Below are positions 38,793-44,950 of a stretch of DNA of 64,000 bases, piece after piece. The translations under genes and the position numbers were made by a program. Numbering within the stretch: position 1 is the stretch's first letter; every line of letters starts with the position of its first letter. The notes beneath the pieces are model-generated. The model saw only the letters and a list, made by a program, of their open reading frames with translations. It was not told where the DNA came from and made no database searches. The DNA lies in contig JAURCP010000007.1 in NCBI GenBank assembly GCA_030828405.1, forward strand, positions 1 through 64,000, given 5' to 3'. The stretch comes from Thermoplasmatota archaeon (GTDB lineage: Archaea; Thermoplasmatota; Poseidoniia; Poseidoniales; Thalassarchaeaceae).

Positions 38793-40922
38793 ATGGAACC
38801 GATTATGACCGTCGTCCTTATGCTAGCAATTGTTGTTTGTGCCTACATGGCATGGAACATAGGTGCCAATGATGTTGCCAATGCAATGGGGACCTCTGTA
38901 GGTTCCAGAGCCTTGACATTGAGACAGGCAGTTATTATTGCTGCTGTGTTCGAATTCTGCGGAGCTTTCTTTGCAGGTGATGCAGTTACAGATACTGTCA
39001 GAAAGGGTATTCTAAATATCGACCTCGCAGATGAAACTCTAGTTACAGATGCATTTGCTAATGATTTGATGTTCGGATTCATTGCGGCAATGATGGCAGC
39101 AGCAGTTTGGTTGACAATTGCGACTCGATTCGGATTGCCAGTTTCAACAACGCATTCAATAATTGGTGGAATAGTTGGTGTAGGATTAGTTCTGGAAGTA
39201 CAACATAATGCTTCACTAATAGATTGGGAAGTTGTGAGAAAAGTAGTCATGTCATGGGTAGCAAGCCCACTAATGGGTGGTATTCTTGCATTCATCACAT
39301 TCTTCATTGTCCGTGCGAGTATTCTTGAAGCAGATGACCCAATTGCGAGATCTAGATGGTTAGCGCCGATTCTTGCCTTGCCTACATTCTTCACATTAGG
39401 TCTAGCATTACAATTTAAGGCACTAAAAGGATTCATTTCAAGAGCAGCTTCAGAAGGATGGATTGATGATAAGAACGACTGGTTGCCAGTGAAAGAGAAT
39501 GGAGTTTTCGACCCATTCGCAGAAAATGCTTGGTTCCCTATAAATTCTCTAATTGTAGCATTTATCATTGGATGTATTGCATCTATGATACTTTGGTATG
39601 TTCTGAGAGACTATGATTTCAAGAAGCAAGGAGAAGGGTTCCAAGGTGTAGAGAAAATTTTCGTTTGGCTACAGATAATCACTGCAGCATATGTTGCATT
39701 CGCTCATGGTGCTAATGACAGATCTAATGCGATTGGACCGATGGCTGCCGTTTACGACATCCTATCTAGTGGTGGGGATTTAGCAGCTAAGGTAGATGTT
39801 CCACTTTGGTTGGTGCTACTTGGTTCCGTAGGTATTGCTGTTGGTGTAGTAACATGGGGATGGAGAGTAATGGAAACAATTGGTACGAAAATTACCGATA
39901 TTACACCAACAAGAGGATTCGCTGCAGAGTTTGGAGCGGCAACTACAATCCTGATTTTCTCAATGCCATTCCTGGCAGTGCCTGTATCAACTACTCACAC
40001 ACTGGTTGGGTCGGTAGTAGGAGTCGGTTTGGCTGGAGGTGCAAAGAATGTGGATTTCAAAGTGTTTGGTAAGATTGCAGCATCATGGGTAGCAAGCCTC
40101 CCAGCAGCAGGTTTTGGTTCAGTAACACTCTATGTTGCCATGGGCTCAGATCCATTGAAATTAATTGTAGTACTTCCTATCTCATTCTTATTAGTAGGAT
40201 ATGTCATGTGGAAAACTAGTGGCGATGAAATATTTGTTGAAGATGCATTAGCAGATGCTGGTGCAGACGGTGGAAAATATGACCCTACAGTTTTCGAATT
40301 ATTCCACACTCATGCTGAGGCTGTAGAGGAAACCGTTGACCACATGTTAAATGCTGTGAAAAAGAGCGCAGCAGGAGAAGATGCATCTGAAGAAATCAAT
40401 GCGACAATTGAGGCTGAGCTAAGAGCCGATGATATCAAGAATGCATTGAGAGAGAAGGTTAGCAGTAAAGGCTGGAAGCTATTAATCGACAGTGATGAGT
40501 TCCTATACATGCTCGGGAGGCAAGATAGGATAGCAGATTATGCACAAAATGTTGCTGAACAACTGTCTTTCAGAGAACTTTACAATAATGAAGAAGCAAG
40601 AAAAATGATAATCGAGATGGCTGAGGCAGTAAAAAAGACTGCAGCAGTTTACGAAGATACCGTTTTACACCTAAGAGATCTAACACTTTCTGGAAATACC
40701 AAGAAGGGAAGAACTGAGTTAAGAGAACTGATTCATCAAGTAAACCTTGCAGAACATGAGGCAGACTTAGTTGAAAGTCGTGCAGCAGGATTTGTATTTA
40801 GAGAGGGAGTTGATGATCCTCTTGCAGCGGTACATATGTACAGAGTATTGCAGAGACTTGATGATGTTGCTAACTCTTGTGAAGATGCAGCTAATGCATT
40901 CTTACCAATAGTTTACAATTAG
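38793..40922 (+). CDS. PiT-family phosphate transporter fused to a PhoU-like DUF47 domain
   Basis: The first 480 residues are a PiT inorganic phosphate symporter with the paired repeats GANDVANAMGTSVGS and GANDRSNAIGPMA and the STTHS/STTHT loops. The last 210 residues are a DUF47/PhoU-like helical domain (LGRQDRIADYAQNVAEQL, EHEADLVESRA, VLQRLDDVANSCEDAANA). In most organisms DUF47 is a separate gene beside pit; here it is fused, so regulation is built in. ATG 38793 is chosen over the TTG at 38763. Divergent from the AbrB-PhoU gene. Confidence 0.92.
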   Translation: MEPIMTVVLMLAIVVCAYMAWNIGANDVANAMGTSVGSRALTLRQAVIIAAVFEFCGAFFAGDAVTDTVRKGILNIDLADETLVTDAFANDLMFGFIAAMMAAAVWLTIATRFGLPVSTTHSIIGGIVGVGLVLEVQHNASLIDWEVVRKVVMSWVASPLMGGILAFITFFIVRASILEADDPIARSRWLAPILALPTFFTLGLALQFKALKGFISRAASEGWIDDKNDWLPVKENGVFDPFAENAWFPINSLIVAFIIGCIASMILWYVLRDYDFKKQGEGFQGVEKIFVWLQIITAAYVAFAHGANDRSNAIGPMAAVYDILSSGGDLAAKVDVPLWLVLLGSVGIAVGVVTWGWRVMETIGTKITDITPTRGFAAEFGAATTILIFSMPFLAVPVSTTHTLVGSVVGVGLAGGAKNVDFKVFGKIAASWVASLPAAGFGSVTLYVAMGSDPLKLIVVLPISFLLVGYVMWKTSGDEIFVEDALADAGADGGKYDPTVFELFHTHAEAVEETVDHMLNAVKKSAAGEDASEEINATIEAELRADDIKNALREKVSSKGWKLLIDSDEFLYMLGRQDRIADYAQNVAEQLSFRELYNNEEARKMIIEMAEAVKKTAAVYEDTVLHLRDLTLSGNTKKGRTELRELIHQVNLAEHEADLVESRAAGFVFREGVDDPLAAVHMYRVLQRLDDVANSCEDAANAFLPIVYN

Positions 40923-41707
40923 TTAGACCAACCAACTTCTTCCAGTATAGAATCGGCATCACTAGATCGTATTTTATCGAGTGTAGGTTGGAAAAATCTC
41001 CAAGCGAAATATCCTACGAACATACCAGAAAACAAATCGAACATATAGTGTTGTTTGGTTGTGAGTATACTAATACACAGTAGGACCCATTCAACCCACA
41101 AAAGTATCTTGAATGGTTTCGCCCAATTAGTTTCTGAATAGTTGTGATTTAACCAATGAGTAATCATTCTTGCAAGGCAATATGAGTGAACAATATGGAG
41201 ACTTGGCCACGCATTCCAAGGCTTGTCAGAAGTATGTATAAACTCAAAGAGAATTGTCTCTAGACCATTCATAGAATCCCAATCAATTTGATTTCTCATG
41301 TCAACTTCTGCTGGAAATAATAAGAAAATCATTACACAAAATAGGGTGGCTAGAATTAGCATTTGCATTGCTGATATTAACTCCAAACGACCTTTGTCGT
41401 CCTTAGGAGTCAGAATCAAAGTTGTAGGATAAAATAAGTACAATGCAGCGTACGGAATTATCATCCAATTAATCACAGGAACAGAACGATCGTATGAAAT
41501 CTCGGGAAATACTGAGAATGCGTCTTCAAGATAGAAATGTGCGATATTATTAGAGCCAAAGTATGGCACTGCAATGAATATTAGGCCGAAAACAAATACT
41601 TCGAGAGGGAACCAATTGCCATTGAGTACTTCTCTTCGCTCCCAAGAACCTCTCCAGAATCTTTTCCAAGGCATTGTTAATCTAGATATGATTGAATCAT
41701 TATCCAT
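40919..41707 (-). CDS. PAP2-superfamily membrane phosphatase or phosphotransferase
   Basis: A 262-residue protein with about six membrane helices. The PAP2 signature is visible as AWPSLHIVHSY (His in the second motif) and TKQHYMFDLFSGMFVGY (the third motif); the first motif is not obvious. The layout resembles Aur1/Ipt1-type inositol phosphotransferases and lipid phosphatases. A likely role is dephosphorylation or headgroup transfer of isoprenoid lipids. The 3' end overlaps the PiT gene by 4 bp. Confidence 0.75.
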   Translation of the reverse strand: MDNDSIISRLTMPWKRFWRGSWERREVLNGNWFPLEVFVFGLIFIAVPYFGSNNIAHFYLEDAFSVFPEISYDRSVPVINWMIIPYAALYLFYPTTLILTPKDDKGRLELISAMQMLILATLFCVMIFLLFPAEVDMRNQIDWDSMNGLETILFEFIHTSDKPWNAWPSLHIVHSYCLARMITHWLNHNYSETNWAKPFKILLWVEWVLLCISILTTKQHYMFDLFSGMFVGYFAWRFFQPTLDKIRSSDADSILEEVGWSN

Positions 41708-41763: not shown

Positions 41764-43215
41764 TTATTCTTCATCAGGCATAATATAAGATACTAAAATA
41801 GTCACTAAAGAGGATCCTAGTAATGCACTTAAGAAAACTTCCAGATTAGCTAAACCAGCATCATTAGTAGGTGAAAAAAGATAATCGATTCCTGCTGAAA
41901 AGTCTTCAGTCAATGTACCATATATCACGACTGAGAGGAGCCCAGAAAATGCACCAAATAGAGACCCCTTTGATGAAACTCTATCCCAAAGAGTCAGTAA
42001 AACTGGCCCCACGGTTGCAGCAGCATACAAATCGGCTCTTAGGAAAATCTCGAAAACACCGCCACTATCTAGTGTAAAACCAGCAATTGTAGGCCCTGTT
42101 GCCAGATAAATAGCTAATGGAATCATGGCGACTGTTAGATATTTAGCCGCATTAAGACTAATTTTGTCATCACATATGTCTCTAGATATTGAAGCAATAA
42201 TTGCGTTTTGCAAAGTATCAGCACTAGAACATACCAATGCAATAGATAGTATTACGAATGCTACCACAAAAAACAAGCCTATTTCTTCAATCAAATAAAA
42301 GAAAGAGACGGAAGGGTCACTGACAGCACCCTGTCCTGCAACAGAAGTTCCAAGGAAACCCATTATGAATATCAATGGGAACACTATCAGAGAAGCAGTT
42401 ATAGCCGCTTTTTTCAACGATTTTTCATCTTCACTAGCCCAAGCTCTTTGCCAGTTACCTTGAGAAAACATTTCTGCAGCCGTAATTGCTACAACAAGTG
42501 CCAACCCAGATTTAAAAGTTGAAGTATCACTAATACTACCATGATACCAATCCCATTCTATATCTTCTGGAGTATACGATTTAGCATCGGAAATTAAACT
42601 GTTAATATCTCCAATAAATAGTATTACTAGTAAAGAAGATATCAAAAACATGATTGCCCATGCTTGGATTTTATCGGTTTCAAGAGAGGCAGGAAGACCC
42701 CCGTAAGCAGTATATCCCGCAGTGACCACACCAACTGCAACCATTGGTACTAAAGGATCCATACCGACTAAGATTTCCATGACTTTACCAATAGCAGTGA
42801 ATTCCGCAAAAAGAAAAGTAAACATATACAGTATAGAAATTAAACCAACATAAATCTGCATAGGTCTACCTGCACGAGATTTAGCATAATCAGCAAGAGT
42901 GACCCCCTCGGGTAATCTCTCTCTAACCATAGGTCCGACATATGCAAGTAAAAGGAAAGGAGTTGATGCAGAAAGAGCATACCCAAAAACGTCCCAAAAG
43001 CCACCATAATAACCAACCTCAGAAGGGGCTAATAGAACCCAAATACCCATTCCCGAAGCAAAAAGACTCAGAGTAATACTAAGAGTATTTTGAGTACCTC
43101 TGGCAGATAGATAATCATCACTATTAATTTCTTTATTGGCTACCGAATGATATGCAATATATCCAAAAAATCCTAGAGTAGCAAGCATCAATCCGTAAGC
43201 AATATTGTTATCCAT
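41764..43215 (-). CDS. Sodium:solute symporter (SSS) under TPP riboswitch, probable thiamin or precursor transporter
   Basis: A 483-residue protein with about 13 membrane helices in the LeuT/SSS arrangement, starting MDNNIAYGLMLATLGFFGY; ASGMGIWVLLAPSEVGYYG and GGLPASLETDKIQAW are SSS-typical tracts. SSS members carry sugars, proline, pantothenate and others. The gene directly behind is P5C dehydrogenase, so proline uptake (PutP) is an alternative. However a TPP riboswitch sits immediately in front of this gene (43223-43302). SSS transporters under TPP riboswitches are known in other prokaryotes (ThiV-type, from memory). Thiamin, HMP or thiazole uptake is therefore preferred. Confidence 0.82.
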   Translation of the reverse strand: MDNNIAYGLMLATLGFFGYIAYHSVANKEINSDDYLSARGTQNTLSITLSLFASGMGIWVLLAPSEVGYYGGFWDVFGYALSASTPFLLLAYVGPMVRERLPEGVTLADYAKSRAGRPMQIYVGLISILYMFTFLFAEFTAIGKVMEILVGMDPLVPMVAVGVVTAGYTAYGGLPASLETDKIQAWAIMFLISSLLVILFIGDINSLISDAKSYTPEDIEWDWYHGSISDTSTFKSGLALVVAITAAEMFSQGNWQRAWASEDEKSLKKAAITASLIVFPLIFIMGFLGTSVAGQGAVSDPSVSFFYLIEEIGLFFVVAFVILSIALVCSSADTLQNAIIASISRDICDDKISLNAAKYLTVAMIPLAIYLATGPTIAGFTLDSGGVFEIFLRADLYAAATVGPVLLTLWDRVSSKGSLFGAFSGLLSVVIYGTLTEDFSAGIDYLFSPTNDAGLANLEVFLSALLGSSLVTILVSYIMPDEE

Positions 43216-43222
43216 TTTTTAT

Positions 43223-43302
43223 TCCTCCGCTGGTATTATCCAGATCAGGTCAAAGGGTCGTTACTTTCGTAACCTCTCAGCAAAAGCTCCCCATCATGAG
43301 GA
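43223..43302 (-). promoter_or_regulatory. TPP (THI-box) riboswitch
   Basis: Read on the minus strand, all conserved parts are present in order: GGGGAGC, TTTT, GCTGAGA, a hairpin GTTAC-GAAA-GTAAC, ACCC, then ACCTGATCTGGATAATACCA and GCGGAGGA. The core ACCTGATCTGG and CTGG/CCAG stem are the TPP signature. The GGAGG (43224-43228) is both the end of the aptamer and, 8-9 nt ahead of the ATG at 43215, the Shine-Dalgarno. TCCTC at 43298-43302 could pair with it as P1. This implies translational switching off by TPP. Confidence 0.93.
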
Positions 43303-43330
43303 CTGAGATGAGGCTATTGAATATATTCCC

Positions 43331-44950
43331 TCAGTTATCAGGTTGCATGAATTGGTAATCCCAATTTTGTGGAGGCTCGAATGTTCTTTTTACTGAACGA
43401 GGACTAATCCACCTTAACAAATTCAATGGTCCGCCAGCTTTGTCATTGGTACCACTAGCTCTAGCGCCACCGAATGGTTGTTGAGCGACTACAGCACCTG
43501 TTGGTTTATCATTGATATAGAAATTTCCTGCTGTAAATCTAAGAGCATTGAATGCTTTCTGTACATCAGATTCATCATTGGCGAAGATTGACCCAGTAAG
43601 AGCATATGGAGAAGATTCATCACATAGAGTTAGTACTTCATCGAACTTATCGTCATCATATAGATAGACGGTTAGTACTGGGCCAAATATCTCATCTATC
43701 ATTGTCTCTGATTTAGGATTTGATGTTACGATAATTGTTGGTTCAATGAACCATCCTACTGAATCATCATAATTCCCGCCAACAATTACTTCACACGAGT
43801 CATCAGCCTTGGCTCTATCAATATAGCCAGTTATCTTGTCGAAAGATCTTTGATCAATCACAGCAGTCATAAAGTTGGTAAAATCCATAGCATCTCCCAT
43901 CTTTATTTTCCTAATTTCATCACATAATTCATCACTGATTGATGACCAAACTGATTGAGGCACATATGCTCTACTAGCAGCAGAACACTTCTGACCTTGG
44001 AACTCAAATGAGCCTCTCAGTAATGCTACTAACAAACCACGCTCATTGCAATTAGGATGAGCTACAACAAAGTCTTTACCGCCTGTTTCACCAACAATTC
44101 GAGGGTATGAACGGAGATTGGGTAAAGCTAAACCAATTTCCTGCCAAAGACCTTGGAAAGTTGCAGTTGAGCCGGTGAAATGTAAACCAGCAAAGTCAGG
44201 ATTTGCTAGAGCAACCTCCGTTATTTCTGCACCAGAACCTGGCAAGAAATTTATCACGCCATCTGGCAATCCGGCTTCCATCATTAACTGCATAAGAATG
44301 TAGTTAGATAAGTATGAATTCCTACTCGGCTTCCAAACAGATGTACATCCAACAATTGCAGGAGCGCTGGGGAGATTAGCCGCGATACTGGTGAAATTAA
44401 ACGGTGTTATTGAAAGAACAAAACCTTCCAAAGGACGTATTTCAGTGGAGTTTTTAACCCCTGGAGGTGAAACTAATGGTTGGAAATCATCATGAAAATT
44501 TCTTGCATAGAAGCAATTAAAGCGCCAGAAATCAATTAATTCACACGCAGAATCTATTTCTGCCTGGAAAACTGTTTTTGATTGATTAAGCATGGTAGAG
44601 GCATTTACTTTCATCCTCCATTCTCCTGCTAATAAATCAGCACACTTCTCAAAAATTTCGCATCTAGATTCTAAACCAATATCGATCCAATTTTGTTGCG
44701 CATTAACTGCTGCCTTGCAAGCATTTTCCATCTCATCTTTACCTGCCAAGTGAACTCTTGCGATAATTTGATTATGGTTATGAGGAATTACCTGAGTTGC
44801 AATATTTCCAGTAAATACTTCTTTACCATTTATGATACAAGGGATTTCAATTATCTCATTCATTTGCCTATCAAGTTCTGCTTTGATTTCAATTCTCTCT
44901 TTACTACCCGGAGAATAGCCGAGGATAGGCTCGTTAACTGGATGACTCAT
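43331..44950 (-). CDS. L-glutamate gamma-semialdehyde (P5C) dehydrogenase
   Basis: This NAD-dependent enzyme converts pyrroline-5-carboxylate semialdehyde to glutamate in proline and arginine breakdown. At 539 residues it resembles mitochondrial ALDH4A1: SITPFNFTSIAANLP, the glutamate in GETGGKDFVV and nucleophile cysteine in EFQGQKCSAASRAYVP, and the tail FGGARASGTNDKAGGP. No proline dehydrogenase is in the window. It is divergent in function from the SSS gene downstream, though on the same strand with a 115-bp gap holding the riboswitch. Confidence 0.92.
   Translation of the reverse strand: MSHPVNEPILGYSPGSKERIEIKAELDRQMNEIIEIPCIINGKEVFTGNIATQVIPHNHNQIIARVHLAGKDEMENACKAAVNAQQNWIDIGLESRCEIFEKCADLLAGEWRMKVNASTMLNQSKTVFQAEIDSACELIDFWRFNCFYARNFHDDFQPLVSPPGVKNSTEIRPLEGFVLSITPFNFTSIAANLPSAPAIVGCTSVWKPSRNSYLSNYILMQLMMEAGLPDGVINFLPGSGAEITEVALANPDFAGLHFTGSTATFQGLWQEIGLALPNLRSYPRIVGETGGKDFVVAHPNCNERGLLVALLRGSFEFQGQKCSAASRAYVPQSVWSSISDELCDEIRKIKMGDAMDFTNFMTAVIDQRSFDKITGYIDRAKADDSCEVIVGGNYDDSVGWFIEPTIIVTSNPKSETMIDEIFGPVLTVYLYDDDKFDEVLTLCDESSPYALTGSIFANDESDVQKAFNALRFTAGNFYINDKPTGAVVAQQPFGGARASGTNDKAGGPLNLLRWISPRSVKRTFEPPQNWDYQFMQPDN

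Follow-up and report, generated by a model that had tools for sequence, protein, structure and literature searches.

What does a minus-strand transporter gene beside a P5C dehydrogenase gene import, and what controls it? The window, the whole 64,000-nt stretch of DNA analysed here, comes from a metagenome-assembled genome (81% completeness) of a marine planktonic archaeon of the family Thalassarchaeaceae, which together with its sister family Poseidoniaceae falls within Ca. Poseidoniales (Marine Group II). At 41764-43215 (-) it encodes a 483-aa SSS-family transporter (PF00474), which we assign to the ThiV/SSSP type and predict to be a Na+:thiamin symporter. An earlier note had read the leader of this gene as a TPP riboswitch acting by concealment of the Shine-Dalgarno sequence (SD), and had relabelled the transporter, whose neighbour would suggest proline, as an importer of thiamin or a precursor.

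The leader matches the full RF00059 model (positions 1-105) at 43303-43205 (-), with a conserved core at 43224-43292. The score is 54.1 bits (E=9.1e-10 using cmscan in a 701-nt search; E=4.2e-10 in a whole-genome search), and the match is significant and full-length; the earlier note had named an Infernal run with this model as its check. It lies 0.2 bits below the RF00059 gathering score of 54.3 bits, which is why a whole-window scan at the gathering score does not contain the element. All of the conserved THI-box blocks that had been claimed for the minus strand were located: GGGGAGC at 43292-43286, CTGAGA at 43280-43275, GACCC at 43259-43255, ACCTGATC at 43250-43243 and TAATACCAGCGGAGG at 43238-43224.

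Helices were counted in an alignment (A1) of 67 distinct relatives. The 5' strand of P2, GGG at 43290-43292 (-), is partnered by CCC at 43257-43255, and all three pairs are GC in 67 of 67 sequences. CUGAGA (43275-43280, -), a conserved block in the arm that senses the pyrimidine (HMP) and is established as a ligand contact in the TPP aptamer, is invariant in A1. In the variable hairpin (43260-43273, -), where 43273-43269 pair with 43264-43260, 100% of cells are paired, none is broken, and both sides have changed at four of the five pairs. P5 (CUGG/CCAG with an AUAAUA loop; 43230-43243, -) is likewise 100% paired, and three sequences carry changes on both sides. The 5' strand of P4, CCU at 43247-43249 (-), is partnered by AGG at 43226-43224 within the SD; this pairing is invariant (67/67) and present in the predicted fold, while the fourth model pair is a G-G mismatch in 67/67, so that three of the four model pairs are kept. 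Every one of these helices and blocks of RF00059 is thus either invariant or covarying. By family, the element is a genuine TPP riboswitch, and it is predicted to bind TPP. Elements of this kind are present in 71 of 194 Ca. Poseidoniales genomes, 52 of them with a match over the gathering score; for this order, then, the earlier note's description of archaeal TPP riboswitches as uncommon does not apply.

The position of the SD within this aptamer suggests how the gene could be controlled. GGAGG at 43224-43228 (-) stands 8 nt before the ATG at 43215 and overlaps the 3' strand of P4, and the 16S rRNA of the same genome ends in GGATCACCTCC, which contains the anti-SD. The ribosome-binding site therefore does lie in the 3' end of the riboswitch, as had been noted, and more precisely inside P4. 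This overlap occurs in every row of A1, with AGG common to P4 and the SD, and in relatives that carry the element the start codon follows within a few nucleotides of the GGAGG of the P4 arm. Both predicted folds of the window leader have the SD paired in P4. The ribosome-binding site is thus embedded in the aptamer itself, as in riboswitches that act by direct occlusion.

The earlier note had hidden the SD in another way, through an exchange of strands in which UCCUC at 43302-43298 pairs with GAGGA at 43227-43223. The letters exist and all five are complementary, and UCCU-like letters recur at the same place in several relatives of the same genus. The pairing itself did not stand: across the 67 sequences 34.9% of cells are paired, compared with 35.4% for shuffled partners, and a conserved anti-SD helix was rejected. 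It also clashes with P4, which needs the same bases and is invariant, and it is absent from both folds of the window leader. The supposed anti-SD (43298-43302, -) is therefore unsupported as a pairing element and may even precede the start of transcription, and we regard strand exchange as very improbable.

The flanks of the element count in favour of direct occlusion. For the closing helix P1, 53.7% of cells are paired compared with 52.4% for shuffled partners, and some versions in which the strands were slid are equally good. When the best helix between the flanks was sought, 71 Marine Group II sequences gave a mean of 7.00 compared with 6.97 for re-dealt flanks, and 96 of 200 re-deals scored as high. 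Thirteen comparator TPP riboswitches (bacterial plasmids supplied 12 and a collection of viral contigs one; a pattern scan of viral contigs for more yielded few useful ones) gave a mean flank helix of 12.54 against 8.87 when re-dealt, with 0 of 200 re-deals as high and at least four pairs in 13 of 13. A conserved P1 was consequently rejected in the Marine Group II elements, as neither the two registers tried nor the re-dealing of flanks exceeded chance. For want of P1, the window element is filed as a variant of the TPP riboswitch and not as a standard member.

A putative promoter would account for this absence. The TATA-like sequence ATTCAATA lies at 43315-43322 (-), 30 nt before GGGGAGC. Among the 71 relatives an AT-rich block is conserved at -35 to -24 before GGGGAGC, with peaks at -26 and -25, and the best match to GTTNAATA begins at -34 to -30 in 48 of 71 sequences. 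Archaeal TATA boxes stand at a usual distance from the transcription start, and we infer from this spacing that the first transcribed nucleotide probably lies at the aptamer edge. Such a start would explain the missing P1, and it would leave UCCUC at or before the start.

The following mechanism is hypothesized on this basis. When TPP is ample, it would bridge the two sensor arms and lock the P4-P5 arm, so that CCU keeps the AGG of GGAGG in a helix, out of reach of the 30S subunit; the switch would thus be off with TPP. When TPP is scarce, the three-pair P4 would open and the transporter would be made. The aptamer would be the whole leader, with neither a P1 helix nor a separate expression platform, for which the 8 nt between SD and start codon leave no room. 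Several findings count against this reading: the match falls just short of the gathering score; P4 consists of three standard pairs and a G-G mismatch and forms also in the predicted ligand-free fold; the folding energy of the window leader is not better than that of shuffled sequences; the use of SD sequences among the window's genes is only modest; and some genomes of the family have the transporter with no detected riboswitch. The incompleteness of the window's genome is a further limit. TPP riboswitches elsewhere work by transcription termination or through Rho (PMC10907184, PMC11487190), and control of termination or mRNA stability instead of translation would have such precedents here. 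However, the same 8-nt interval is too short to house a terminator, and the SD lies within P4 in all relatives; we therefore consider action on transcription decidedly unlikely and retain occlusion of the SD as the preferred reading.

What the transporter carries was approached through its own sequence. It matches PF00474 (E 4e-19, 69.2 bits) and falls far below the cut-offs for PutP, PanF and ActP, reaching only 36.4 bits against the TIGR02121 PutP model, whose cut-off is 515.5. A tree places it in a 100/100 clade with a Halomonas symporter and haloarchaeal symporters, apart from PutP, PanF and ActP; this tree has long outgroup branches and does not include the SAR11 protein itself. The Halomonas member of the clade sits behind a TPP riboswitch with GGAGG at the same place, and two of the haloarchaeal members adjoin TenA genes, one of them being also near a gene of the thiamine-phosphate-synthase family. 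HMP/thiamin symporters are typified by a Tyr in cTMD2, an acidic residue in cTMD3, and Phe with His or a polar residue in cTMD6 (PMC11452348). At these positions the window transporter has Tyr79, Glu138 (Asp in the legend of PMC11452348) and Phe250-Ser251, which E. coli PutP, PanF and ActP do not have. A search of solved structures gave no match with the single transporter protein and weak SGLT matches with a profile, and the residues were for this reason placed by alignment to homologues and not to SiaT. Orthologues at 57-58% identity occur in two further stretches (L174, from a Marine Group III record, and L178), and no TPP riboswitch was found in either.

The neighbouring gene (43331-44950, -) is indeed a P5C dehydrogenase (L-glutamate gamma-semialdehyde dehydrogenase; TIGR01236, 760 bits with a cut-off of 613.6), and it raises the possibility of a proline symporter tied to this enzyme, with the riboswitch as a relic. 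Of 77 related loci, 57 have the dehydrogenase gene upstream of the SSS gene, and where a lineage lacks the riboswitch the two genes abut or overlap. Yet it also adjoins the genes of the thiamin ABC transporter ThiBPQ, and since it neighbours either importer it gives no hint at proline. The PutP score, the tree and the residues all exclude PutP, and on these grounds proline identity was rejected; the riboswitch core, moreover, is strictly conserved. A proline symporter is thus scarcely credible.

The thiamin genes of the order were then weighed for the choice between the vitamin and its precursors. ThiC was found in 0 of 194 genomes (the control was positive in 13 of 14), and ThiE over the cut-off in 0 of 194 and ThiD in 0 of 60. 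Thi4 matches over the cut-off were nucleotide-binding motifs of about 40 residues in frames of mostly 400-550 aa, which we read as other flavoproteins and rejected. ThiL gave only partial matches below the cut-off. A ThiN protein is absent from most genomes of the window's family, and HTH-ThiN was not found in the window's genome. Thiamin pyrophosphokinase is present in 182 of 194 genomes, including the window's own, where the match is over the cut-off. Because the genomes are incomplete, such absences carry less weight in any single genome; across the order this is scarcely a limit. The organism apparently cannot make vitamin B1, and the dependence that the earlier note had proposed, together with the gaps at thiC and thi4 by which it was to be recognized, is supported at the level of gene content. 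Imported thiamin would be converted to TPP by thiamin pyrophosphokinase.

With no enzyme for the use of HMP found and the pyrophosphokinase present, thiamin and not HMP is the expected cargo. The competing view is that the substrate is HMP, whose import has been proposed for SAR11 ThiV (PMC11452348), or another precursor; the window transporter shares the same diagnostic residues. HMP, however, could not become thiamin in a cell of this kind, as ThiC and ThiE (194 genomes) and ThiD (60 genomes) are missing and ThiN is mostly lacking in its own family. In addition, the SSS protein takes the place of ThiB, by family a thiamin-binding protein. We consider a precursor unlikely as the cargo. The earlier relabelling as "thiamin or precursor importer" thus keeps its main point, in that the protein groups with thiamin-related symporters and not with PutP, and it is narrowed to thiamin, which is predicted as most likely ahead of HMP or proline.

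Comparison of the loci reveals an exchange of both importer and sensor. Among the 194 genomes the SSS protein occurs in 73 and ThiB in 99, and both in one, where about 37 would be expected if they were independent; ThiB identity was checked with TIGR01254, over the cut-off for the two proteins tested. The window has the order P5CDH - riboswitch - SSS - PAP2. In a stretch from the same genus (L059) the order is P5CDH (85% identical) - riboswitch - ThiB - ThiP - ThiQ - PAP2 (83% identical). The thiamin ABC transporter ThiBPQ therefore replaces SSS at the same locus in relatives. In the window's family the riboswitch stands before SSS in 51 genomes and before ThiB in 13. The sister family has an HTH + ThiN protein in this position, before ThiB in 71 genomes and before SSS in 5. 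Riboswitch and ThiN gene occur together in only 3 genomes. The HTH-ThiN protein thus replaces the riboswitch in the sister family.

The PAP2-family membrane protein of the window (40919-41707, -; PF14378, 31.8 bits with a cut-off of 27) follows the importer in 56 of the 75 related loci and might act as a phosphatase on thiamin phosphates. PAP2 genes also lie downstream of ThiBPQ in both families (L059:2-529; L057:4537-5337).

Several loci depart from these arrangements. Fourteen genomes of the window's family have the transporter with no detected riboswitch, and at least 10 are truly without it. In L041-L045 and L047-L051 the transporter has been kept and the riboswitch lost, and the transporter's start codon directly adjoins or overlaps the stop codon of P5CDH. 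Deep water is suggested by the names of some related records (Cayman deep, Guaymas). The absence in L046 is an artefact: N masks this part of the sequence, and the 3' end of the riboswitch can still be seen. The sole genome with both importers (G152) carries a pair of riboswitches; one precedes SSS, and the other a ThiB fragment located at the end of a contig (L061 and L094). In a genome of the sister family whose ThiN gene adjoins ThiB, a divergent TPP-like element sits at the end of a contig, with its target gene off the contig (L090; G160:C69:45-140). L123, labelled as an Acidimicrobiaceae bacterium, carries the Marine Group II order P5CDH - TPP riboswitch - SSS - PAP2, and this contig is probably misbinned or mislabelled.

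Considering these lines of evidence jointly, we hold it to be rather probable that the TPP riboswitch directly occludes the SD of its own gene, with a transcription start at the aptamer edge and with neither P1 nor platform, and that the gene encodes a thiamin importer in a cell that does not synthesize the vitamin. A broader proposal, to which we give an even chance, is that reduction of the Marine Group II TPP riboswitch has left an aptamer with no P1 as the entire leader, in which transcription starts at the aptamer's edge and TPP directly occludes the SD strand of the pyrophosphate-sensing P4 arm, and that at a single locus within the order sensor (riboswitch or HTH-ThiN) and effector (SSS or ThiBPQ) change places as cassettes, each independently of the other.

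As of 2021, the fluoride riboswitch was described as the only natural archaeal riboswitch demonstrated experimentally (PMC8241225). In the literature searched, TPP riboswitches are not described for Marine Group II, although 'Riboswitches in archaea' by Gupta and Swati (2019) may list some. A conserved TPP switch in abundant ocean archaea would offer a mechanism that could be tested with about 90 nt of RNA. The reading predicts thiamin dependence of Marine Group II and argues against a 'proline symporter' label for the transporter. Across the loci, sensors made of RNA and of protein substitute for each other before the same importer genes, which makes these loci a natural series.

Compared with bacterial RF00059 members such as E. 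coli thiM and tbpA, the window switch has the same blocks, P2, P4, P5 and variable hairpin, and a thiamin transporter gene downstream. It differs from them in having no P1 or separate platform, in carrying the SD within P4, and in its archaeal promoter context. Hiding of the SD and translational control, as in E. coli tbpA, are likewise predicted for it, whereas the tbpA switch works by P1 and anti-P1 (PMC11487190). TPP riboswitches in front of SSS transporter genes are already known from bacteria and algae: the thiV/SSSP systems of SAR11, Methylobacillus and algae (PMC11452348, PMC4260697) share the transporter type, the riboswitch class and the diagnostic residues. Here, by contrast, the host is archaeal, no HMP-using enzyme was found, and thiamin is expected instead of HMP. 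No riboswitch was reported on the haloarchaeal SSSP genes examined in PMC4260697. Direct-occlusion riboswitches such as SAM-II and preQ1 have the ribosome-binding site inside the aptamer and use no strand exchange, as predicted here. PMC10907184 puts the TPP class under strand exchange and SAM-II, preQ1 and others under direct occlusion, a scheme from which the window aptamer, as a TPP aptamer predicted to occlude directly, would depart. The Halomonas riboswitch has GGAGG in its P4 arm as the window does, but keeps P1 (GUCGC:GCGAC); the SD in P4 is therefore a trait shared with bacteria, and what sets the archaeal form apart is that P1 has been lost. HTH-ThiN (ThiR-like) proteins, reportedly treated by Hwang in 2017, are said to be thiamin regulators of archaea. 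In the sister family such a protein, an HTH joined to ThiN, is encoded directly upstream of ThiB or SSS, whereas at the window's gene the riboswitch takes the regulator's place.
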